Of a stretch of 64,000 nt of DNA, positions 13,900-24,977 are shown piece by piece. Each line of letters begins with the position of its first letter. Positions within the stretch are counted from its first letter, which is position 1. The DNA comes from Streptomyces fulvoviolaceus (GTDB lineage: Bacteria > Actinomycetota > Actinomycetes > Streptomycetales > Streptomycetaceae), in NCBI RefSeq assembly GCF_000718165.1, contig NZ_JOEY01000016.1, positions 1 through 64,000 on the forward strand. The letters are read 5' to 3'. A program made the position numbers and the translations under genes. The notes below the pieces were generated by a model, which saw nothing but the letters and a program-made list of their open reading frames with translations, searched no databases and was not told where the DNA came from.

Positions 13900-14171
13900 C
13901 GGCCGTTCCCTTCCCTGGCTCACGCACATCACGCGCGCGTGAGCTCACGTACATAGGACACGAAGTGGGGGCGCTCCGTATCCAAGTACTTCGTTACCTT
14001 ACCTAACTCTTGACGATTTCTTGACGCTTCTCGGGGCAAGATCGAACGCTCGTCCGCGCTGGTTCCCGACTCCGCGTCAAGTGGCCACAGGCCCTGCGCC
14101 TATGGTTGCTCCAGCGTTCAGTCAAAAGCACAGCCCGCCCTGCCGCTCGCGTTAGGACAGCAAGGACAGCG

Positions 14172-16949
14172 ATGCCCCCCACCACCACCGCCTCTTCGGG
14201 TCAGCAGCCCGGCAAGTCCGGCAGGAAGAAGGGGCGCAAGGCCCGTCTGATCGTTCTCGTCCTTGTACTGGCCATCATCGGGGGCGTCGCCTACGGGGCG
14301 TACTGGAGCATCAGCACCGTCCGCGCGTCCTTCCCGCAGACCAAGGGCTCGATCACGCTGGAGGGCCTCTCGGGCCCCGTCGACGTCAAGCGCGACAGCT
14401 ATGGCATCCCGCAGATCTACGCCTCCTCCGACGCGGACCTGTTCATGGCGCAGGGCTACGTCCAGGCGCAGGACCGGTTCTACGAGATGGACGTGCGCCG
14501 TCACATGACCTCCGGGCGCCTGTCGGAGATGTTCGGCAAGGGCCAGGTCGACAACGACGAGTTCCTGCGCACCCTGGGCTGGGACCGGGTCGCGAAGGAG
14601 GAGTACGACAAGACGCTGTCGGCCTCCACGAAGAAGTACCTCCAGGCGTACGCCAAGGGAGTCAATGCCTACCTCCAGGGCAAGGACGGCAAGGAGATCT
14701 CCCTGGAGTACGCGGCCCTCGGCTTCGAGAACGACTACAAGCCCGAGCAGTGGACCCCGGTCGACTCGGTCTCCTGGCTGAAGGCGATGGCCTGGGACCT
14801 GCGCGGCAACATGCAGGACGAGATCGACCGCGCCCTGATGACCAGCCGCCTCGGCCCCCAGCAGATCAAGGACCTGTACCCGGACTACCCGTACAGCCGG
14901 AACCAGACGATCGTCCAGGAGGGCCAGTACAACGAGCTCACCCAGACGTTCGAGCAGAACGGCAGCACGTCGGACAGCGGCACGTCCACCAGCGGCTCCA
15001 CGACGGGCACCACGGGCACGTCGTCCTCGACCTCGACGTCGGCCACCTCGGCCCTGCAGAGCCAGCTCTCGGGCCTCTACAACGTCCTGGACGACGTCCC
15101 CACGGCCGTCGGCGTGAACGGCAACGGCATCGGCTCCAACTCCTGGGTCGTCGCGGGCTCGCACACCATCACCGGCAAGCCGCTGCTGGCCAACGACCCG
15201 CACCTGTCGGCCTCACTGCCGTCCGTCTGGTACCAGATGGGCCTGCACTGCCGCACCGTCTCCAGCAAGTGCCAGTACGACGTCACCGGCTACACCTTCG
15301 CGGGCATGCCCGGCGTGGTCATCGGACACAACGCGGACATCGCCTGGGGCATGACCAACTCCGGCGTCGACGTCACCGACCTCTACCTGGAGAAGCTCAC
15401 CGGCGACGGCTACCTGTACGACGGCAAGGTGAAGCCCTTCACCACGCGCGAGGAGACCATCAAGGTCGCCGGCGGCAAGTCCAAGAAGATCGTCGTCCGG
15501 GAGACCAACAACGGGCCTCTGCTGTCCGACCGCAACGACGAACTCGTGAAGGTCGGCAAGAAGGCCGAGGTCAACAACGCCGCGCCCGACCGCGGCAACG
15601 GCTACGGCGTCGCCCTGCGCTGGACCGCCCTGGACCCGGGCACCTCCATGGACGCCGTCTTCGCGATGGACAAGGCGGCCGACTGGACCGAGTTCCGCGC
15701 GGCGGCCGCGCTGTTCGACGTGCCCTCGCAGAACCTCACCTACGCCGACAGCACGAACATCGGCTACACGCTGCCCGGGCGCATCCCGGTGCGCGCGAAG
15801 GGCGACGACGGCTCGATCCCGGCGCCGGGCTGGGACTCCAAGTACAGCTGGACCGGCGAGTACATCAAGCAGGACGAGCTGCCGTACGAGTACAACCCGG
15901 AGCGTGGCTACATCGTCACCGCCAACCAGGCCGTGATCGACAAGGACAAGTACCCCTACACGCTCACCACGGACTGGGGCTACGGCACCCGCAGCCAGCG
16001 CATCACCGACCTGATCGAGCAGAAGATCAAGGGCGGCGGCAAGATCTCCACCGACGACATGCGCCAGATGCAGCTGGACAACAACAGCGCGATCGCCAGC
16101 CTGCTCGTGCCCATGCTGCTGAAGATCGACGTCGGCGACAAGGACGTCCGCGAGGCGCAGGAGCTGCTGGAGGGCTGGGACTACACCCAGGACGCCGACT
16201 CGGCGGCGGCCGCGTACTTCAACTCGGTCTGGCGCAACATCCTCAAGCTCGCCTTCGGCAACAAGCTGCCCAAGGAGCTGCGGGTCAAGGGCCAGTGCCT
16301 GTGGGTCGACCCGGCCGACAGCACCGGGCCGGTCGACGACACCCAGAAGGTGCGCGAGTGCGGCGAGCGCGACGCCGACCAGGCGCAGCCCGACGGCGGC
16401 GACCGCTGGTTCCAGGTGGTCCGCAACCTGCTCGAGGACGAGAACAGCGACTGGTGGAAGACGCCCTCCTCGGGCACCCGCCCCGGCGCCGACAACCGCG
16501 ACGAACTGTTCAAGCGCGCCATGATCGACGCCCGCTGGGAACTGACCGCCAAGCTCGGCAAGGACATCGACACCTGGAGCTGGGGCCGGCTGCACCGCCT
16601 GTTCCTGAAGAACCAGACCCTGGGCACCGACGGCCCCGGCTACCTGCAGTACATGCTCAACCGTGGCCCCTGGAAGCTCAGCGGCGGCGAGGCGACGGTC
16701 AACGCCACCGGGTGGAACGCCGCCGGCGGCTACGGCGTCGTCTGGGTGCCGTCGATGCGCATGGTGGTCAACCTCGGCGACATCGACAAATCGAAGTGGA
16801 TCAACCTCACCGGCGCCTCCGGGCACGCCTTCAGCGCCCACTACACCGACCAGACGAGCAAGTGGGCCGACGGCGAACTGCTGGACTGGTCCTTCTCGGA
16901 CGACGCGGTCGACAAGAGCACGAGCGACACACTGGTGCTGAAGCCGTGA
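14172..16949 (+). CDS. Penicillin acylase family (S45) N-terminal-nucleophile hydrolase
   Basis: This is a 925-residue amidohydrolase precursor that in its family is cut into alpha and beta subunits. It starts with a basic tail and a membrane helix (about 26-46), so it is anchored or exported. The alpha part includes DSYGIPQIYA and AQGYVQAQDRFYEMD. A Ser/Thr/Gly-rich spacer covers about 282-310, followed by GSNSWVV. Ser322 there is the expected N-terminal catalytic residue of the beta chain. NDPHL and MPGVVIGHN also fit. The substrate is unknown; acyl-homoserine lactones or antibiotics are typical. The ATG has AAGGA upstream. The gene is transcribed divergently from the antiporter. Confidence 0.92.
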   Translation: MPPTTTASSGQQPGKSGRKKGRKARLIVLVLVLAIIGGVAYGAYWSISTVRASFPQTKGSITLEGLSGPVDVKRDSYGIPQIYASSDADLFMAQGYVQAQDRFYEMDVRRHMTSGRLSEMFGKGQVDNDEFLRTLGWDRVAKEEYDKTLSASTKKYLQAYAKGVNAYLQGKDGKEISLEYAALGFENDYKPEQWTPVDSVSWLKAMAWDLRGNMQDEIDRALMTSRLGPQQIKDLYPDYPYSRNQTIVQEGQYNELTQTFEQNGSTSDSGTSTSGSTTGTTGTSSSTSTSATSALQSQLSGLYNVLDDVPTAVGVNGNGIGSNSWVVAGSHTITGKPLLANDPHLSASLPSVWYQMGLHCRTVSSKCQYDVTGYTFAGMPGVVIGHNADIAWGMTNSGVDVTDLYLEKLTGDGYLYDGKVKPFTTREETIKVAGGKSKKIVVRETNNGPLLSDRNDELVKVGKKAEVNNAAPDRGNGYGVALRWTALDPGTSMDAVFAMDKAADWTEFRAAAALFDVPSQNLTYADSTNIGYTLPGRIPVRAKGDDGSIPAPGWDSKYSWTGEYIKQDELPYEYNPERGYIVTANQAVIDKDKYPYTLTTDWGYGTRSQRITDLIEQKIKGGGKISTDDMRQMQLDNNSAIASLLVPMLLKIDVGDKDVREAQELLEGWDYTQDADSAAAAYFNSVWRNILKLAFGNKLPKELRVKGQCLWVDPADSTGPVDDTQKVRECGERDADQAQPDGGDRWFQVVRNLLEDENSDWWKTPSSGTRPGADNRDELFKRAMIDARWELTAKLGKDIDTWSWGRLHRLFLKNQTLGTDGPGYLQYMLNRGPWKLSGGEATVNATGWNAAGGYGVVWVPSMRMVVNLGDIDKSKWINLTGASGHAFSAHYTDQTSKWADGELLDWSFSDDAVDKSTSDTLVLKP

Positions 16950-16970
16950 GCCGCTGAAGCGAAGCTCGCC

Positions 16971-17006
16971 GAAAGGGTCCTCCACACGCGTGTGGAGGAC
17001 CCTTTC
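16971..17006. terminator. Bidirectional terminator, perfect 36-bp palindrome
   Basis: GAAAGGGTCCTCCACACG is followed directly by its exact reverse complement. It lies between the convergent penicillin acylase and 5-formyl-THF cyclo-ligase genes, 22 nt after the former's stop codon, so it can end transcription from both sides. Confidence 0.85.
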
Positions 17007-17083
17007 GCATGCGGAGGCGTGGTGCGCGCAGAGGCGCGCGAGACATCTGTAATGCGCCCCCTGGATGTCGAGGGGAGCGCTGC

Positions 17084-17716
17084 TCAGGAGTCGGCGCGAA
17101 AACGGCGCACGCCCGATGGCGTCACCACCGCGTGCACCGGTCGGTCATGCGCCTCCTCCGGGACGTGCTGGACGACCTCGTAGTCGTACAGGAGCACCAC
17201 CAGCGCGGGGTGTGCGCCCGCGCGCTCCAGGCGCGCGAGAACACGGTCGTACGACCCCCCGCCGCGCCCCAGGCGCATCCCGCGCGCGTCCACCGCCAGC
17301 CCGGGCAGCAGCACGACGTCGGCGGCGGTCACGGCGTCCGGGCCGAGGCGCTCCCCGGCGGGCTCGAAGAGGGCCATTTTTCCGCCGTGTTGGATGCGTG
17401 TGAGGGAGCCTTCTCCGGCGTACGCGCCCCAGTCCAGGTCGTTGTCCGGCAGGAGCGCCGGGAGCAGGACGTGCACGCCCCGCGCGCGCAGCGCGTCCAG
17501 CAGCGCCGGCGTGCCGGGCTCGCTCCCCACGGAGACGTACGCCGCCACCGTGCGCGCACGCGCCAGCTCGGGCAGCTCGAGCGCCCGCTCGGACAGCGCG
17601 GCCGCCGCTTCCCGCACGTCATCGGCCGTCAACCTGTTCCTCACCGCGAGGAACTCTCGCCGCAACATTCGCTTGTCAGGCTCGGCGGGACGTCCGACGT
17701 GACTCAAAGTCTGCAC
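17084..17716 (-). CDS. fthC: 5-formyltetrahydrofolate cyclo-ligase
   Basis: The enzyme converts 5-formyltetrahydrofolate to 5,10-methenyl-THF with ATP hydrolysis, returning stored folate to one-carbon metabolism. The 210-residue protein has KRMLRREFLAVRNRL at the N-terminus, VAAYVSVGSEPGT, and the ATP/folate-site motif GMRLGRGGGSYDRVLA near the C-terminus. The start is GTG at 17716. It is divergent from galU with an 84-bp promoter region between them, the same arrangement seen in mycobacteria next to galU and moeA1. Confidence 0.92.
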   Translation of the reverse strand: MQTLSHVGRPAEPDKRMLRREFLAVRNRLTADDVREAAAALSERALELPELARARTVAAYVSVGSEPGTPALLDALRARGVHVLLPALLPDNDLDWGAYAGEGSLTRIQHGGKMALFEPAGERLGPDAVTAADVVLLPGLAVDARGMRLGRGGGSYDRVLARLERAGAHPALVVLLYDYEVVQHVPEEAHDRPVHAVVTPSGVRRFRADS

Positions 17717-17800
17717 CCGTACCCCTTCAATGCGCTCATATCAGAGCTTATTAACCGGAGCCTCAGATTCACTGCAAAGGCACCGGATAAGGTTGCGGAC

Positions 17801-18703
17801 ATGACTCAGTCGCACCCTCGGATCAGCAAGGCTGTCATCCCCGCAGCTGGCCTCGGCACCCGGTTCCTGCCGGCCACCAAGGCCACTCCCAAAGAGATGC
17901 TGCCGGTCGTGGACAAGCCGGCGATCCAGTACGTGGTCGAGGAGGCCGCGTCCGCGGGCCTCGATGACGTCCTCATGATCACGGGCCGCAACAAGCGGCC
18001 CCTGGAGGACCACTTCGACCGCAACTACGAGCTGGAATCGGCCCTTCAGAAGAAGGGCGACGCCGACCGGCTCGCGAAGGTGCAGGAGTCCAGCGACCTC
18101 GCCACCATGCACTACGTCCGCCAGGGCGACCCCAAGGGCCTCGGCCACGCCGTCCTGTGCGCGGCCCCGCACGTGGGCCACGAGCCCTTCGCGGTCCTCC
18201 TCGGCGACGACCTGATCGACCCGCGCGACCCGCTGCTCAAGCGGATGGTCGAGGTCCAGGAGCAGCGCGGCGGCAGCGTCATCGCGCTCATGGAGGTCGA
18301 GCCGGAGCAGATCCACCTCTACGGATGCGCTGCTGTCGAGCCCACCGACGATGCTGACACCGTCAAGGTCACCGGCCTGGTGGAGAAGCCCGACCCGACG
18401 GACGCCCCGTCGAACTACGCGGTCATCGGCCGCTACGTCCTCGACCCGCACATCTTCGACATACTGCGCAAGACCGAGCCCGGTCGCGGCGGCGAGATCC
18501 AGCTCACCGACGCCCTCCAGCAGCTCGCCGAGGACGAGAAGGTCGGCGGCCCGGTGCACGGCGTCGTCTTCAAGGGCCGCCGCTATGACACCGGCGACCG
18601 CGGCGACTACCTGCGTGCCATTGTCAGACTCGCGTGCGAACGTGAAGACCTGGGCCCGGACTTCCGGACCTGGCTTCGCAGTTACGTAGCCGAGGAGATG
18701 TAG
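17801..18703 (+). CDS. galU: UTP-glucose-1-phosphate uridylyltransferase
   Basis: The enzyme makes UDP-glucose from UTP and glucose-1-phosphate for cell-wall and capsule sugars and trehalose. The 300-residue protein has the nucleotide-binding AAGLGTRFLPATKATPKEML loop, VVDKPAIQYVVEEA, GLGHAV and the GDD metal site (LLGDDLIDP). The late GRRYDTGDRGDYL fits the sugar-binding end. The ATG begins shortly before the first strand. The MoeA-like gene follows after only 5 nt, so the two are an operon. Confidence 0.96.
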   Translation: MTQSHPRISKAVIPAAGLGTRFLPATKATPKEMLPVVDKPAIQYVVEEAASAGLDDVLMITGRNKRPLEDHFDRNYELESALQKKGDADRLAKVQESSDLATMHYVRQGDPKGLGHAVLCAAPHVGHEPFAVLLGDDLIDPRDPLLKRMVEVQEQRGGSVIALMEVEPEQIHLYGCAAVEPTDDADTVKVTGLVEKPDPTDAPSNYAVIGRYVLDPHIFDILRKTEPGRGGEIQLTDALQQLAEDEKVGGPVHGVVFKGRRYDTGDRGDYLRAIVRLACEREDLGPDFRTWLRSYVAEEM

Positions 18704-18708
18704 CAACG

Positions 18709-20031
18709 TTGAGCAGCGCCGCGCCCCGCACCACCGGCCAGGACCACCTCTGGTCGGTGGACGAGCACCTGGAGGACATCCTCGCGACCGTCCGCCCCCT
18801 GGAGCCCATCGAGCTGCAACTGCTCGACGCCCAGGGCTGTGTCCTGGTCGACGACGTCACGGTGCCGGTGTCCATGCCGCCGTTCGACAACAGCTCGATG
18901 GACGGGTACGCGGTGCGGGTCGCGGATGTCGCGGGCGCGAGCGAGGAGTTCCCCGCCGTCCTGGACGTCGTCGGGGACGTCGCGGCGGGCCAGGCCGATC
19001 TGCTCCACGTGGGTCCCGGCCAGGCCGCCCGCATCATGACCGGCGCCCCGCTGCCGCCCGGCGCCGAGGCCGTCGTCCCCGTGGAGTGGACCGACGGCGG
19101 CCTGGGTGAGGGCCCGGTGAGCGGGATGAACGCCCGCAGCCTGGCCCCTGAGGGCGCCTCCGGGCACGTGCACGTGTTCCGGCCAGCCGAGGCCCGCGCT
19201 CACGTGCGCGCGAAGGGCAGCGACGTGAAGGCCGGAGACCGTGCTCTGGAAGCCGGTACCGTGCTCGGTCCGCCGCAGATCGCGCTGCTCGCCACGATCG
19301 GCCGCGGCACCGTACGCGTGCGCCCGCGCCCCCGCGTGGTCGTGATGTCCACCGGCAGCGAACTCGTACAGCCCGGCGAGGAACTGGCCGGCGGGCAGAT
19401 CTACGACTCCAACAGCTTCGCCCTCACCGCGGCCGCCCGTGACGCCGGTGCCATCGCCTACCGCGTGGGCGCCGTCGCCGACGACGCCGAAACACTCCGG
19501 TCCACCATCGAGGACCAGCTCGTCCGCGCCGACCTCATGGTCACCACGGGCGGTGTGAGCGTCGGGGCGTACGACGTCGTCAAGGAGGCGCTGTCGTACG
19601 TCGGTGACGAGGACGAGGCCGGCAGCGGCATCGACTTCCGCAAGCTCGCCATGCAGCCCGGCAAGCCCCAGGGCTTCGGCTCCATCGGCCCCGACCACAC
19701 CCCGCTGCTGGCCCTCCCCGGCAACCCGGTGTCGTCGTACGTCTCCTTCGAACTGTTCGCCCGCCCCGCGATCCGCACCCTCATGGGGCTCGAGGACGTC
19801 CACCGGCCGAGGACCACGGCGACCCTGACCGCGGACAAGGCGCTGACCTCGCCGAAGGGCCGCAGGCAGTTCCTGCGGGGGACCTACGCCGATGGCGCGG
19901 TGAGCCCGGTCGGCGGTGCCGGATCCCACCTGGTCGCGGCCCTCGCACACGCCGACGCGCTGATCGTCGTCCCCGAGGACGTCGAGTCCGTGGAGCCCGG
20001 CACCGAGGTCGAGGTCGTCCTGCTCGGCTGA
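18709..20031 (+). CDS. glp: MoeA-like (gephyrin-like) protein, probable divisome factor Glp
   Basis: The 440-residue protein has the full MoeA architecture: PPFDNSSMDGYAVR (57-70), MTGAPLPPGAEAVVPVE, TTGGVSVGAYD (279-289) and LPGNPVSSYVSFELF. MoeA inserts molybdate into molybdopterin. However, its place after galU, with rimJ and sepX/glpR downstream, is that of actinobacterial Glp. In Corynebacterium Glp binds FtsZ and the membrane receptor GlpR. The residue matching E. coli MoeA Glu188 (GGVSVGEAD) is Ala here, though this may be common among actinobacterial MoeA proteins. The start is TTG at 18709, 5 nt after galU. Both roles remain possible, especially as moaC and mogA follow. Confidence 0.88.
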   Translation: MSSAAPRTTGQDHLWSVDEHLEDILATVRPLEPIELQLLDAQGCVLVDDVTVPVSMPPFDNSSMDGYAVRVADVAGASEEFPAVLDVVGDVAAGQADLLHVGPGQAARIMTGAPLPPGAEAVVPVEWTDGGLGEGPVSGMNARSLAPEGASGHVHVFRPAEARAHVRAKGSDVKAGDRALEAGTVLGPPQIALLATIGRGTVRVRPRPRVVVMSTGSELVQPGEELAGGQIYDSNSFALTAAARDAGAIAYRVGAVADDAETLRSTIEDQLVRADLMVTTGGVSVGAYDVVKEALSYVGDEDEAGSGIDFRKLAMQPGKPQGFGSIGPDHTPLLALPGNPVSSYVSFELFARPAIRTLMGLEDVHRPRTTATLTADKALTSPKGRRQFLRGTYADGAVSPVGGAGSHLVAALAHADALIVVPEDVESVEPGTEVEVVLLG

Positions 20032-20160
20032 GCCCACGCGCGTGCGCTGTCCGTGGGGGAGTCCTGATCCGTTGTTTGCGTCGACTTGGCGGTACCGTGT
20101 CGCGCACAACAGGCCCACGCGCCGCACCGCGACGGGCCCGGACCGGGAGCGCCACACGCC

Positions 20161-20673
20161 ATGACTGTGCCTTCCCGGGGGGAGACCCCCGGACCCTTTG
20201 TGCAGGACCGACTGACCCACATCGACGAGGCCGGGGCCGCCCGCATGGTCGACGTGTCCGGGAAGGACGTGACCGCGCGCACCGCCCGCGCCAGCGGCCG
20301 AGTCCTGGTCTCGCCCCGTGTGGTCGAGTTGCTGCGCGGCGAGGGCGTCCCCAAGGGAGACGCCCTGGCCACGGCACGGATCGCGGGCATCATGGGCGCC
20401 AAACGCACGCCGGACCTCATCCCGCTGTGCCACCCGTTGTCGGTGTCCGGTGTGAAACTGGATCTGTCGGTCGCGGACGACGCCGTGGAGATCCTGGCCA
20501 CGGTGAAGACGACGGACCGCACAGGCGTCGAGATGGAGGCCCTCACCGCGGTCTCCGTCGCCGCGCTCACCGTGATCGACATGGTCAAGGCGGTCGACAA
20601 GGGAGCGGTCATCACGGACGTACGGGTGGAGGAGAAGACGGGCGGCAAGTCGGGCGACTGGAGCCGGTCATGA
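20161..20673 (+). CDS. moaC: Cyclic pyranopterin monophosphate synthase
   Basis: MoaC turns the MoaA product into cyclic pyranopterin monophosphate, the first stable intermediate of molybdenum cofactor synthesis. The 170-residue protein shows [38 protein letters not shown] (with the conserved His) and [20 protein letters not shown] (with the active-site Asp/Lys region nearby in DMVKAVDKG). The ATG at 20161 is followed by a short non-conserved tail before the domain. Its stop codon overlaps the next start (ATGA), so mogA is translationally coupled. Confidence 0.95.
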
Positions 20674-21212
20674 CACTCGACGCGTCGACCGGCGGCACGC
20701 TCCTCGCGCCGTACTGCGCGCTGGTCGTGACCGCCTCCAACCGGGCCGCCGCCGGGGTCTACGAGGACAAGGGCGGGCCGTTGATCGCCGCGGGCCTCGA
20801 AGGCTTCGGCTTCGCCGTCGACGGGCCGCAGGTCGTCCCCGACGGTGACCCCGTGGAGGCCGTGCTGCGCGCGGGCGCCGAGGCCGGCTACGACGTGATC
20901 GTCACGACCGGCGGCACCGGCATCTCGCCCACCGACCGCACACCCGAGGCGACCCGCAAGGTGATCGACTACGAGGTGCCGGGCATCGCCGAGGCCATCC
21001 GCGCGTTCGGGCGGGGGAAGGTGCCGACCGCGGCGCTCTCCCGGGGCCTGGCAGGGGTGGCGGGGCTGACGCTGATCGTCAACCTGCCGGGTTCCAGCGG
21101 CGGGGTGAAGGACGGACTGGCCGTCCTGGAGCCCCTGTTGACGCACGCCGTCGACCAGATCCGCGGCGGCGACCATCCCAGACCCGACGCCGGCAGTGGG
21201 GGTGCGAGCTGA
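20670..21212 (+). CDS. mogA: Molybdopterin adenylyltransferase (MogA/MoaB)
   Basis: The enzyme adenylylates molybdopterin before molybdate insertion. The 180-residue protein has [20 protein letters not shown], the signature [18 protein letters not shown] and [13 protein letters not shown], all classic MogA/MoaB substrate-site motifs. It overlaps moaC by 4 nt. The moaC-mogA pair is inserted between glp and rimJ, where mycobacteria and corynebacteria have fewer genes. This could mean the MoeA-like protein upstream also serves cofactor synthesis. Confidence 0.93.
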
Positions 21213-21898
21213 ACAGCCCATCCTGGCCCGTCGTGCTGGCGGACGGCGATGTCGTCCTCCGGCCGATAAAGATGCGCGACCAGCGGGCCTGGCGCGAGGT
21301 CAACCGGCGCAACCGGGACTGGCTGCGCCCCTGGGAGGCGACCATCCCGCCGCCCACCCCCAGCGGGCCGATCACGCACCGGCCGACCTACCGCCAGATG
21401 GTGAGACATCTGCGGTCCGAGGCGAACGCGGGCCGGATGCTGCCGTTCGTCATCGAGTACCAGGGGCGGCTGGTCGGGCAGTTGACGGTCGCCGGGATTA
21501 CCTGGGGCTCTATGTGCTCGGGGCACATCGGCTACTGGGTGGACGAGGCGGTGGCCGGCCGCGGAGTGATGCCCACATCCGTGGCGCTTGTCGTGGACCA
21601 CTGTTTCCGGACCGTTGGTCTGCACCGCATCGAGGTCTGTATTCGCCCCGAGAACGGGCCCAGCCGCCGGGTCGTGGAGAAACTCGGATTCCGTGAGGAG
21701 GGGCTGCGCCCGCGCTATCTCCACATCGACGGCGCCTGGCGCGACCACCTCGTCTTCGCGCTCACCGCGGAGGAGGCCCCCGACGGCCTGCTGAGGCGTT
21801 GGCAGCGGTCACGCTCGCAGAACGCTCCCCACGACACCTCCGGCACACACCACAACACCCCCCGGAACCCGCAGAACACTCCGGGGAATCCCGCGTAG
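21209..21898 (+). CDS. rimJ: RimJ-type GNAT N-acetyltransferase
   Basis: This is an acetyl-CoA-dependent acetyltransferase of the RimJ/RimL type, which acetylates protein N-termini. GHIGYWVDEAVAGRGVMPTS holds the acetyl-CoA loop, and RIEVCIRPENGPSRRVVEKLGFREEG is the typical C-terminal motif. GTG at 21233 would give a start inside the conserved first strand. The frame upstream contains SWPVVLADGDV, which resembles homologues, and the only candidate start is CTG at 21209. That CTG overlaps the mogA stop by 4 nt and has a GGGGG run six bases upstream. The last 40 residues are Asn/Thr/Pro-rich. It is part of the conserved glp-rimJ-glpR block. Confidence 0.85.
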   Translation: MNSPSWPVVLADGDVVLRPIKMRDQRAWREVNRRNRDWLRPWEATIPPPTPSGPITHRPTYRQMVRHLRSEANAGRMLPFVIEYQGRLVGQLTVAGITWGSMCSGHIGYWVDEAVAGRGVMPTSVALVVDHCFRTVGLHRIEVCIRPENGPSRRVVEKLGFREEGLRPRYLHIDGAWRDHLVFALTAEEAPDGLLRRWQRSRSQNAPHDTSGTHHNTPRNPQNTPGNPA

Positions 21899-22065
21899 GC
21901 GGGAAGCGACCCCAGGGAATTGAATAAACGTTCGAAAATGATCGGCAGGTGACCGTCTCAGGGCGCGGAATTCGCGTCTTCGGTGGCCTGCTGATCGGAT
22001 CGGTCACAAAAAAAGCTCGAAATATCAGCCAGATCGTGCGACACACCGGCTCAATTGGCAGATGG

Positions 22066-22094
22066 CCTCACACAAACCCCTCTACCGTGTGAGG
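22066..22094 (+). promoter_or_regulatory. Inverted repeat overlapping the sepX translation start region
   Basis: CCTCACAC (22066-22073) and GTGTGAGG (22087-22094) are perfect complements around a 13-nt loop, ending one base before the GTG start at 22096. The right arm contains the only candidate Shine-Dalgarno (GAGG). As RNA it could hide the ribosome site; as DNA it could be an operator. Confidence 0.5.
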
Positions 22095-22095
22095 C

Positions 22096-23358
22096 GTGAG
22101 CAGCAGCGGCCTCATCTACGCAGTCATTGTCGGGGCCTGGGCCGCCTACTTGGTGCCGATGTGGCTCCGTAGGCAGGACGAGCTGAACGAGGCCCGTCCG
22201 ACGGAACGCTTCAGCACCGCCATCCGGTTGCTGTCCGGACGGGCGGGGATGGAGCGCCGGTACGCCAAGGACCTGCGGGCGCGCTCCACCGATGAGGGGG
22301 AGCACAGCGCCGGCAACCCGGGCGCGGTCACCGACTCGGTGGACGTCCGGGCCTTCGCCATGCCTCCGACCCGTCCTCAGGCGCAGGCGAAGGTTCAGGC
22401 GCCGGTTTCCGGGCGCTCCGAACCGGCGCGCGAAGCAGCACGCGAGCCCGCGCGCGAAGTGGTGCGCGAGCCCGCGCGTGATGCCGCGCGCGAATCGGCG
22501 CGCGCACATGCGCCCGCGCCCGAACGCGGTGGCGCGCCGGCGCGCAAGCGCGCGCCCGTCGCCCGGCGCACGCCCGCGGCGGAAGCGGCCGCGGCGCGCG
22601 CCCAGCGCACGAAGGCCCTCGCGCGCCGCCGGCGCACAACAGTGGTGCTCTTCCTCGCCTTCACGCTCGGCGCGATCGTCGCCGCCGTCGGCGGGCTCGC
22701 GTTCCTGTGGGCGCCCGGCGTGCCCGCCGTCCTGCTCAGCGCGTACATCGTGTACCTGCGCTCCCAGGAACGCCGACGCTTCGCCTACCAGATGGACCGA
22801 CGCCAGGCCGAGGCCGCCGCGCAGAGACTGCGCGAGAGCGCGCGCCAGCCACGCCGGCGCGCCTCCGTCGCCACGAGCGCGGACGCCGACGAACCGGACG
22901 AGGGACCAGAGCCGGAAACGGACCCCGGGTTGTCGGCGCTCGCCGCGGACCGACGCGCCCTCGTCGAGCAGACCGACCACGCGGAGTGGGTCGACCAGCA
23001 GCGCGAGCGGCAGCGGAGGCCGGGCCACGGAGACAGCTGGGACCCGGTGCCGGTGCCGTTGCCGACGTACGTGACCGCGCCGGTCGCTCCGCGGGCCACC
23101 ACCGACGTGGATCTCGGGGCGCCGGACGCGTGGAGCTCGGCGCGGTCCACTTCCGTCGCGCCGGAGCAGGAGGCGAAGCCCGTAGCGGAGGACGGGGGAT
23201 CGGAGGAGCCGGCGTCCGATGCGGAGGGCATGCCGGCGGCGGACGGTCGTACTGACGCCCGTCGCGCCGCCTCCGCCCGCCGCGCCCGCGAGCGCGGACG
23301 CACGCCGCTCTTCGACCAGTACGAGGACGGCGACCGGCCGCGAGCGGCCAACGAGTGA
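22096..23358 (+). CDS. sepX: Divisome protein SepX/GlpR
   Basis: The 420-residue membrane protein fits SepX (Streptomyces) and GlpR (Corynebacterium), an actinobacterial division-site protein that acts as the membrane receptor of the MoeA-like protein Glp. A first helix (about 5-22) is followed by MWLRRQDELNEARPTERFS. A low-complexity basic/acidic stretch (about 108-180) has repeated REPAR units. A second hydrophobic hairpin (about 181-222) is followed by a long acidic tail. The identification rests on this layout and on the galU-glp-rimJ context. The GTG start overlaps a hairpin. A GACAC WhiA-type motif lies at 22040-22044. Confidence 0.85.
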   Translation: MSSSGLIYAVIVGAWAAYLVPMWLRRQDELNEARPTERFSTAIRLLSGRAGMERRYAKDLRARSTDEGEHSAGNPGAVTDSVDVRAFAMPPTRPQAQAKVQAPVSGRSEPAREAAREPAREVVREPARDAARESARAHAPAPERGGAPARKRAPVARRTPAAEAAAARAQRTKALARRRRTTVVLFLAFTLGAIVAAVGGLAFLWAPGVPAVLLSAYIVYLRSQERRRFAYQMDRRQAEAAAQRLRESARQPRRRASVATSADADEPDEGPEPETDPGLSALAADRRALVEQTDHAEWVDQQRERQRRPGHGDSWDPVPVPLPTYVTAPVAPRATTDVDLGAPDAWSSARSTSVAPEQEAKPVAEDGGSEEPASDAEGMPAADGRTDARRAASARRARERGRTPLFDQYEDGDRPRAANE

Positions 23359-23483
23359 TGTCCGGGGCGGGTGCGCATCAGCACGGTGCGGGTCCCGCAG
23401 GGTCCCGCGGGCCGCGTCCCTGACCAGCCGGGAACGGATTTCCAAGCACCCTGACGGGGATGCTAGAGTTTCACTCGTTGCAA

Positions 23484-23557
23484 GGGCCTGTGGCGCAGTC
23501 TGGTAGCGCACCTCGTTCGCATCGAGGGGGTCTGGGGTTCAAATCCCCACAGGTCCA
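23484..23557 (+). tRNA. tRNA-Ala (anticodon CGC)
   Basis: The sequence folds into a full cloverleaf. The acceptor stem is GGGCCTG/CAGGTCC, the D stem is GCGC/GCGC, and the anticodon stem CCTCG/CGAGG carries loop TTCGCAT. The TTCAAAT T-loop is closed by TGGGG/CCCCA. The anticodon CGC (23518-23520) reads GCG alanine codons, and the G3-U70 wobble pair is the alanine identity element. The discriminator base is A and CCA is not encoded. Confidence 0.96.
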
Positions 23558-23592
23558 CCGCAACAACTCTCCGGGGCGACCTGGGAGTTGAG

Positions 23593-23628
23593 AAGATCCC
23601 GTCCGATCGGTTGATCGGGCGGGATCTT
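23593..23628 (+). terminator. Intrinsic terminator downstream of tRNA-Ala
   Basis: AAGATCCCGTCCGATC pairs with GATCGGGCGGGATCTT (16 bp with one G-T pair) around GGTT, and is followed by TGTATTT. It ends the tRNA transcript and separates it from the MFS gene. Confidence 0.85.
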
Positions 23629-23681
23629 TGTATTTCCGCAGCCCGTGGGACATGTGGCTCATGTGGGACATGAGGGGGAGC

Positions 23682-24977
23682 ATGAAGGCCACCGCCGGTT
23701 TACCGACGACGAGCCGGACGGCGCCCCTCAGGATCGCGGCGTTCCGGCGGTTCGTGCTGGCCGATCTGATCTCCGCGACCGGGTCCGCGATGGCCCCGCT
23801 CGCGCTGGCGTACTCCGTCATCGAGCAGGGCGGGGGAGCGGGGTCGCTGGCGCTGGTGCTGGCGACGAACACCGTGCCGACGATCGTTCTGTTGCTGGTG
23901 GGCGGAGTCCTCGCGGACCGGCTGTCGCGCAGCCGGATCCTCTTCCTCGGCAACCTGCTGGCCGCCGTCGCGCAGGGCGCGTTGGCCGTGACCGTCGCCA
24001 CAGGGCACGCGTCGACGACCTCCATCGCCGCGTGCGGCTTCGTCTCGGGGGCCGCGGTGGCCTTCACCGTGCCGGCGATTCAAGGGGCCGTCAGCCAGAT
24101 CGTCCCCGCGGAGCATCTGCAGCAGGCCAACGCGCTGCTGCGGCTGCCGAGCAACGCGGTCAAGGTGCTCGGCCCCGTCATCGGCGGACTCGTCGTCGCG
24201 GTCAGCGGGCCGGCCTGGGCGCTGGCCTGGGACGCGCTGACCTTCGCCGTAGCGGCTCTCCTGCTCCTCGGGCTCAGGCTGGACGCTCCCCTCGCCGCCG
24301 TCGGCAGCGCGCTGAGTGAACTGCGCGCGGGATGGACCGGGTTCTGGTCGCGGACCTGGCTGTGGACCTACACGGCCGCCGGAACCGTGCTCGTCGCCGC
24401 ATGGCTGGCCGGCTTCCAACTCCTCGGCCCCCTCGTTGCCGCACGCCACTACGCGGGCGCACGCGACTGGGGGCTGGTCCAAGCGGCCTTCGCGTCCGGC
24501 CTGTTGGCCGGGACGCTGGTGTGCCTGCGCTGGCGGCCGCGCCGCCTGCTGACCGTGGCCATCGCGGGCGCCGCGGCGCTCGCGCTGCCCCTCGCCGCGA
24601 TGGGGCAGGGGCTGGCGCTGCCCGCCGTGATGATCGCCACGCTGCTGGCGGGGATCGGGCTCGACGTGGCGATCGTCGCGTGGACCACCGCCTTCCAGCA
24701 GCACGTGCCGCAGGCCGAACTGGGCCGCATGAGCGCCTTCAACAACGTGGGCGAACGGCTCGCCATCCCCCTCGGCTACCTCATCACGGCCCTCGCGACC
24801 CGCACTTGGGACGACCGGACGGTCCTGACGGCGTGCGCCGGCCTCATCGCCGCCGCCAGCGTCCTCAACCTCTGCGTCCCCGACGTGTACCGCATCAACC
24901 GCGCCGACCGCCCCAGGGAGGGCCGACTCCCGGGAGGCCGCCCCCAAGAAAGCGAACGGGAGAACGAACAGGCCTGA
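23682..24977 (+). CDS. MFS transporter (EntS-like)
   Basis: This is a 431-residue major facilitator resembling the EntS/MFS_3 group, with LADLISATGSAMAPLALAYS in helix 1, GGVLADRLSRSRIL in the 2-3 loop and PSNAVKVLGPVIGGLVV in helix 5. About twelve hydrophobic segments are present. Members export siderophores or drugs, and the substrate here is unknown. ATG at 23682 is chosen since GGGGGAG stands just upstream; the in-frame ATG at 23670 has no ribosome site. Its C-terminus is a charged hydrophilic tail. It is convergent with the following GNAT gene, with an 18-bp gap. Confidence 0.88.
   Translation: MKATAGLPTTSRTAPLRIAAFRRFVLADLISATGSAMAPLALAYSVIEQGGGAGSLALVLATNTVPTIVLLLVGGVLADRLSRSRILFLGNLLAAVAQGALAVTVATGHASTTSIAACGFVSGAAVAFTVPAIQGAVSQIVPAEHLQQANALLRLPSNAVKVLGPVIGGLVVAVSGPAWALAWDALTFAVAALLLLGLRLDAPLAAVGSALSELRAGWTGFWSRTWLWTYTAAGTVLVAAWLAGFQLLGPLVAARHYAGARDWGLVQAAFASGLLAGTLVCLRWRPRRLLTVAIAGAAALALPLAAMGQGLALPAVMIATLLAGIGLDVAIVAWTTAFQQHVPQAELGRMSAFNNVGERLAIPLGYLITALATRTWDDRTVLTACAGLIAAASVLNLCVPDVYRINRADRPREGRLPGGRPQESERENEQA

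Follow-up and report, generated by a model that had tools for sequence, protein, structure and literature searches.

Does the MoeA-like gene that lies beside the cell-division gene sepX in Streptomyces encode a molybdenum insertase, the divisome protein that databases call Glp, or both at once? The question is raised by a six-gene block, galU, glp/moeA, moaC, mogA, rimJ and sepX, which lies on the plus strand at 17801-23358 of the window, meaning the whole 64,000-nucleotide stretch analysed here (Streptomyces fulvoviolaceus, assembly GCF_000718165.1, contig NZ_JOEY01000016.1, positions 1 to 64,000; genome of 11.58 Mb). The block itself is already known. According to the accessible text of Martinez 2023 (PMC10522489), Glp and GlpR were defined in Corynebacterium glutamicum and a conserved synteny was noted, and Megrian 2025 predicted a loss of catalysis in Glp and two or more copies in the genomes that bear it. 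The reading favoured here, with a probability of roughly 0.6, is that the block protein is a working MoeA and also a Glp orthologue with an older SepX-linked role, descended from an ancestral MoeA with two jobs that was later specialised.

Twelve of the 13 catalytic positions of Escherichia coli MoeA are identical in the window protein (D59, T100, R137, D142, E188, D228, D259, K275, P298, P301, R350 and S371; the numbering was verified letter by letter), the sole exception being K279Q. This substitution was considered as a mark of inactivity and rejected, as Q is usual there in the block and non-block actinobacterial MoeA aligned. Comparisons were made across 118 genomes from the class, the window's own included, in which profile searches were made for MoaC, MoaA, two molybdoenzyme families and proteins matching the NCBI Glp model; gene orders were taken from 120 regions around the matches, and taxa are given as family codes (f3, f40 and so on). 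To avoid a hand-picked list of residues, a signature was defined from 26 non-block MoeA (25 actinobacterial and that of E. coli) as the 52 positions with an identity of 95% or more. The window protein retains 52/52. In 75 block copies with moaC, from 20 family codes, the mean is 0.986 (minimum 0.923), as it is in the non-block enzymes (0.986), and the signature is eroded where moaC is gone from the block: the 19 such copies (eight family codes) have a mean of 0.701, and Glp of C. glutamicum scores 0.712. D228, an Mg2+ ligand according to the accessible part of a review, is lost in all nine f3 block copies.

A second set of named loci comprised the best 80 of 593, with DGYAV- and LPGNPVS-like patterns, and is hence biased toward intact copies. 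It holds 64 block loci with moaC (signature mean 0.989, minimum 0.94), from genera including Streptomyces, Kitasatospora, Nonomuraea, Streptosporangium, Actinomadura, Nocardioides, Kribbella, Knoellia, Kineococcus, Nocardiopsis and Parafrankia, and two block loci without moaC, from Actinotalea (0.71) and Blastococcus (0.73). Ten loci have neither moaC nor a detected rimJ; the two of these that lie beside sepX have scores of 0.69 and 0.73, their sources being Trueperella and an Actinomycetales metagenome-assembled genome, and the eight that do not score 0.98-1.0. Four further loci have moaC with rimJ undetected and score 0.98-1.0. The 12 loci falling outside the classes of block with moaC and moaC-less are non-block or cut. 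When all 129 rows of the tree set are divided at a threshold of 0.85, 105 have both moaC and an intact signature, 23 have neither, one is intact without moaC and none combines moaC with decay. Under a stricter 11-position core, with D259E allowed, a change is seen in 7/105 moaC-bearing rows; rows with D259E as their only change were not treated as decayed, since this substitution also occurs in non-block MoeA. An enzyme role of the Streptomyces block gene is well supported by sequence, and the window gene is an enzyme-intact form of the protein that databases name Glp, with predicted catalytic activity.

Genomes with only one MoeA also bear on this. In 33 genomes a single MoeA match accompanies moaA and moaC, and with a second model each of them has just one MoeA_N match above threshold (in G092 a further one lies below the cut-off). 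The block gene is the sole MoeA found in 30 of these, from 10 family codes (one on a cut contig), with a lowest signature of 0.962. All 30 carry molybdoenzyme families, PF00174 being present in 28 and at least two PF00384 matches in the other two. In these 30 genomes the insertase has to be the block gene, unless an undetected or unrelated protein substitutes for it.

The S. fulvoviolaceus genome itself has two MoeA genes, the block copy and one on contig 27 (Table 1); this paralogue count had been called for in the original prediction, a model's note on the window made from its letters. It is the block copy, not the other, that has the canonical enzyme signature, contig 27 MoeA keeping 36/52 positions (0.69). 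An alternative in line with the database name is that the block gene encodes a scaffold without catalysis, the cofactor being made by contig 27 MoeA. The window protein does pass the NCBIfam model NF045515 'Glp' (565.7 bits against a curated cut-off of 475) and falls below the cut-off of MoeA_actino, NF050098 (480.4 against 560 bits), and in public records many such proteins of Streptomyces bear the name divisome protein Glp. The loss of catalysis and the second copy predicted by Megrian 2025 would also fit, and the contig 27 type is matched in 60/61 Streptomyces genomes, some in pieces, and keeps D59, T100, R137, E188, D228, D259, P298 and P301 in 30/30 loci. This alternative is nevertheless judged very improbable: the block copy is intact at every signature position, approximately 28% are lost in the contig 27 type, with largely the same positions affected across the 30 loci (shared changes include N55T, M99A, D142E, S371P and H372A), and in the 30 genomes of other families described above the block gene is the sole MoeA found. 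The contig 27 type is a fast-evolving Streptomyces form. The contig 27 protein may still be active, or may be specialised. The block copy is taken to be the main insertase of S. fulvoviolaceus because its site is canonical, because the only moaC and mogA found lie alongside it, and because it is of the kind that serves as sole MoeA elsewhere. In the profile search of the genome the block moaC is the sole MoaC match, exactly one such match being present in 100/101 Streptomycetaceae genomes, and the block mogA is the only non-MoeA PF00994 match. MoaA (Mob_synth_C) was matched three times in S. fulvoviolaceus, on contigs C30, C39 and C60; nearly all other sampled genomes have one match or none.

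Evidence for a role other than catalysis comes from genomes that lack the cofactor pathway. Neither moaA nor moaC was found in 16 of the 118 genomes; PF00174 is missing from these as well, and the one weak PF00384 match in each is presumably NuoG. Six of the 16 keep the block gene beside sepX, with signatures of 0.52-0.77, and belong to four family codes (f32, f37, f38 and f40), f3 not being among them. Across 171 columns, these six copies keep those within 5 residues of the catalytic positions at 0.60 and the distant ones at 0.81 (p=7e-6), and non-block enzymes show the reverse pattern (0.85 near, 0.69 distant). This suggests that the block protein beside sepX is constrained away from its decayed site, and that it probably has a non-catalytic job. 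Retention in six cofactor-less genomes outside f3 suggests that a non-catalytic role extends beyond the corynebacterial lineage, although Streptomyces could have lost it. Together, the sole-MoeA genomes and the pathway-less ones favour an ancestral protein in which the two roles were combined. The original prediction had left it between both jobs and a replacement of one by the other; for the block gene generally, these 30 and six genomes favour 'both'.

The block was found in 96 of the 118 genomes, 77 with moaC inside it and 19 without; among the 22 genomes in which no block was found, 13 had no region examined and nine had regions but no block. Two of the 77 blocks (L039 and L060) are cut by contig ends and were kept outside the 75 analysed. 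In those 75 loci mogA was detected in 74, and moaC, rimJ, sepX and the detected mogA share the strand of glp in 74. An iterative SepX profile found sepX in 93/94 loci where the MoeA-like gene adjoins rimJ. This gene order is far beyond chance. The presence of moaC-mogA inside the block is the usual state, and their absence, which marks f3 and scattered other codes, looks like a derived one. The f3 code is taken to be Mycobacteriaceae because its block copies cluster with C. glutamicum Glp in the gene tree (support 100) and because named mycobacteria have MoeA with 68-88% identity to four of its non-block MoeA. A mogA-like gene lies directly upstream of the block in 2/9 f3 block copies. The genes, names and coordinates given in the original prediction agree with the domain and profile matches and with the order in the window, and its description of a conserved actinobacterial block is borne out by the class-wide counts. 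Its link to C. glutamicum Glp and GlpR holds as well. It was also right that cofactor genes lie inside the block, but they are not special to this genome (77/96 block genomes) and are the rule in this sample. No publication was found, in mostly openly accessible literature, on moaC-mogA in the Glp block, on single-MoeA genomes, or on SepX and MoeA treated together; the word moaC is absent from the main texts of Martinez 2023 and Megrian 2025 as far as these are accessible, and their figures and supplements may show it.

The order of events was addressed with gene trees. In a maximum-likelihood tree made without the test columns and with E. coli outside, C. glutamicum Glp and the f3 copies nest among mostly enzyme-intact block genes, in a clade with Shimodaira-Hasegawa-like approximate likelihood ratio support of 95-100, and the direction proposed here is from two functions to one. 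Of the named set, only 28 block loci with moaC and the four moaC-less ones were taken into a second tree, that of the 129 rows, to limit Streptomyces; alignment A2 excludes L187 and L254. Most moaC-less rows cluster on the trees on long branches, as would be expected if they were one early paralogue that decayed once and then spread or was sorted, the link between moaC and decay being then a single event. This account is unlikely: the moaC-less copies occupy the same syntenic slot, those of f47 (G133) and f58 (G170) place separately on the first tree, and long-branch attraction is likely, so that the long branches of decayed copies could have been drawn together. Family code f40 also holds three states, which speaks against a single paralogue. 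In the first, the block with moaC provides the only MoeA (G096; G069 on a cut contig); in the second, moaC is elsewhere and the block copy is intact (G083); in the third, there is no pathway and the copy is decayed (G118). G083 has a separate cofactor cluster with its own moeA, moaA, moaC, mogA and a PF00384 protein (C103:2639-9087, locus L148 at C103:1-6800), a possible acquisition that freed the block gene.

For the division side of the reading, the comparison is with C. glutamicum, where, according to the accessible text of Martinez 2023 (PMC10522489), deletion of the Met361-Leu370 loop of Glp abolishes binding to both FtsZ and GlpR. The tail of the FtsZ of this genome, AAEELDVPDFLK, carries LDVPxFL, residues contacted by C. 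glutamicum Glp. Block copies, whether or not their block includes moaC, commonly carry an EDQLxR motif in domain III (Table 1) that is seldom seen in other MoeA; it is a candidate scaffold surface. A division role of the Streptomyces block protein, including contact with SepX or FtsZ, is a prediction. The region upstream of sepX (window 22000-22096) is strongly conserved among Streptomyces. It contains a GACAC that we take to resemble a WhiA site, found at -56 or -49 of sepX in 10/11 Streptomyces loci; by chance this 5-mer occurs in 30% of random 200-mers from the same loci on either strand. In S. venezuelae, sepX is a WhiA/WhiB target according to the accessible text of Bush 2022 (PMC8748795).

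Several observations weigh against a block protein with both roles, or against the history proposed for it. At the place of the C. glutamicum binding loop the window protein has a hairpin region of 11 residues, compared with 17 in C. glutamicum Glp (356-372), and the contact residues are absent; an AlphaFold2 model (mean predicted local distance difference test score 91.7) gives a tight hairpin at 386-394/397-400, and among the aligned rows the LMR..YL loop residues occur only in f3 and C. glutamicum. The moaC-less copies keep block-specific columns no better than enzyme-shared ones (0.72 each, p=0.25), and in f3 and C. glutamicum alone the contrast between near and distant columns is not significant (0.64 against 0.71, p=0.29). 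The upstream region suggests a separate promoter for sepX, and the accessible text on the S. venezuelae SepX pull-down (PMC8748795; the text, not the full data set) mentions metabolic enzymes and names no MoeA. At least two MoeA_N matches were found in 100/101 Streptomycetaceae genomes, so that other candidates for the insertase exist there besides the block copy. Among the 19 moaC-less copies, that of G083 is the one exception with an intact core, its moaC lying in another cluster. Not every block gene belongs to the main block clade, those of f42, f52 and G089b being placed elsewhere. Finally, the moaC state changes only 3-5 times on the gene trees, and sign tests on independent pairs were not significant (p=0.125 to 0.5; the decay threshold was 0.92 for the first tree, which counts G083 as decayed, and 0.85 for the second). 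As a pattern, the association of decay with the loss of moaC is strong; as independent statistics it is weak, and it is not statistically established.

Some of these points would be explained if the Streptomyces block gene were a plain MoeA of a moeA-moaC-mogA operon with no part in division, its place beside sepX being an old housekeeping arrangement and the Glp role having arisen only where the gene was freed from catalysis. The intact site, the close gene spacing, the shortened binding loop with LMR..YL confined to f3 and C. glutamicum, and the conserved upstream region of sepX itself all fit this explanation. What it accounts for poorly is the constancy of the block order over 20 family codes and the retention of the gene beside sepX in the six cofactor-less genomes of four codes other than f3, and it is considered somewhat unlikely.

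On the favoured reading of a protein with two roles, the block MoeA would insert molybdenum, acting with the adjacent MoaC and MogA, and the same protein, as a Glp orthologue, would most likely retain an older non-catalytic role tied to SepX/GlpR. The ancestral actinomycete state would have been galU-moeA-moaC-mogA-rimJ-sepX, with one MoeA doing both jobs. Once a lineage loses the cofactor pathway, or gains a second moeA elsewhere, moaC-mogA could leave the block; the active site would then decay and the fold and the sepX link stay, giving Glp as in C. glutamicum. A wider proposal is offered tentatively, at somewhat less than even odds: that actinobacterial MoeA had two functions early, inserting molybdenum and supporting septation beside SepX, much as gephyrin serves both metabolism and synapses; that Streptomyces and the majority of the sampled Actinomycetes still have this state; and that the decayed Glp of corynebacteria and mycobacteria came later, after the loss of moaC-mogA. 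If the present analysis holds, most of the sampled block-bearing genomes carry a real MoeA at this place, the sole MoeA in 30 of them, and the scaffold came about by giving up an enzymatic function that is still in use in most lineages. The Glp annotation would then be corrected, and the block would offer natural before-and-after cases of an enzyme becoming a scaffold. On the wider proposal, the supply of molybdenum cofactor and cell division could also be coupled via one protein.

The features of the locus are collected in Table 1. All three Pfam domains of the MoeA-like protein, MoeA_N (PF03453), MoCF_biosynth (PF00994) and MoeA_C (PF03454), are above cut-off, and its best 120 homologues are from Streptomyces where named, at 90-95% identity. 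The mogA product reaches no NCBIfam equivalog cut-off (MogA NF006932, 95.9 against 158; MoaB TIGR02667, 65.1 against 222.4). Spacing is 5 bp between galU and the MoeA-like gene, 129 bp ahead of moaC, approximately 20 bp between mogA and rimJ and 197 bp ahead of sepX, and the mogA start overlaps the moaC stop by 4 bp. The sepX end of the block is followed by a tRNA-Ala gene, which is the only Rfam match at 16900-23700; no sigma-70-like promoter match was found in that interval. The first disordered region of the window SepX holds a run of Glu-Pro-Ala-Arg-like repeats (EPAREVVREPARDAARESARA). Upstream of the block lies a gene for a large penicillin-amidase-family protein (window 14106-16949, PF01804, 826 bits).

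Table 1. Features of the galU-sepX block and the second MoeA-like gene; positions refer to the window unless a contig is named, and profile scores are in bits with the cut-off after 'vs'.
Feature	Position	Strand	Details
galU, UTP-glucose-1-phosphate uridylyltransferase	17801..18703	+	first gene of block; TIGR01099 347 vs 327
MoeA-like gene (Glp orthologue by position)	18709..20031	+	enzyme-intact form; 440 aa; TTG start
EDQLVR, candidate scaffold surface	19510..19527	+	codons 268-273, domain III; column comparison
Short domain IV hairpin	19882..19905	+	codons 392-399; at place of C. glutamicum Glp binding loop
moaC, cyclic pyranopterin monophosphate synthase	20161..20673	+	TIGR00581 208 vs 141.5
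mogA, MoaB/MogA-type molybdopterin adenylyltransferase by family and context	20670..21212	+	PF00994 89 vs 26.6; single-domain
rimJ-like GNAT acetyltransferase	~21233..21898	+	PF13302; alternative start CTG 21209 possible
GACAC	22040..22044	+	in conserved stretch upstream of sepX
sepX/glpR, septal membrane protein	22096..23358	+	420 aa; NF050099 'SepX/GlpR' 240 vs 150
Second MoeA-like gene (L002)	C27:99754-101127		after mobA-like gene, before gene resembling K+ channel

The closest known counterpart of the window protein by position is C. glutamicum Glp (Cgl0883). The two share a slot between galU and rimJ-glpR, the fold, 37% identity, the same NCBI equivalog model and apparently a proline-rich linker (PRPR); as candidates for the two proline-rich linkers that Glp has between domains I and III the window protein has RPLEP and RPRPR, but proline at C. 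glutamicum position 182 is also found at 0.35 in non-block MoeA families. The galU-glp-rimJ-glpR context of Glp is present in the window with moaC-mogA inserted between glp and rimJ, whereas the f3 copies that group with C. glutamicum Glp have no moaC-mogA there. Unlike the window protein, C. glutamicum Glp no longer has D228, D259 and further positions of the active site, and it carries a protruding loop that binds FtsZ and GlpR. The poorly conserved active site that Megrian 2025 expects of Glp was not found in the window protein, and with two Glp features absent (binding loop and decayed site) it is not Glp in the strict sense.

With E. coli MoeA and Arabidopsis Cnx1E the window protein shares the three MoeA domains and the near-complete set of E. 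coli catalytic positions; E. coli MoeA differs in having K279, where the window protein and most aligned actinobacterial MoeA have Q, and in lacking a division-block setting. Superposition of the monomer model was best with Cnx1E (root-mean-square deviation 3.0 over 397 residues), followed by 8bve and 8bvf (5.0 and 4.4) and E. coli MoeA 1g8l (6.2), and Foldseek E-values ranked Glp chains first; open and closed dimers were compared from this monomer model only. The window sepX belongs to the same NF050099 family as that of S. venezuelae (vnz_14865; Bush 2022, PMC8748795), a septal protein of the same genus, which is 344 aa long compared with 420 aa here. The arrangement proposed for the block protein also has a parallel in animals, where gephyrin is a MoeA protein that has enzyme and scaffold roles together (Megrian 2025). 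In gephyrin MogA is fused, whereas in the window mogA is a separate gene.

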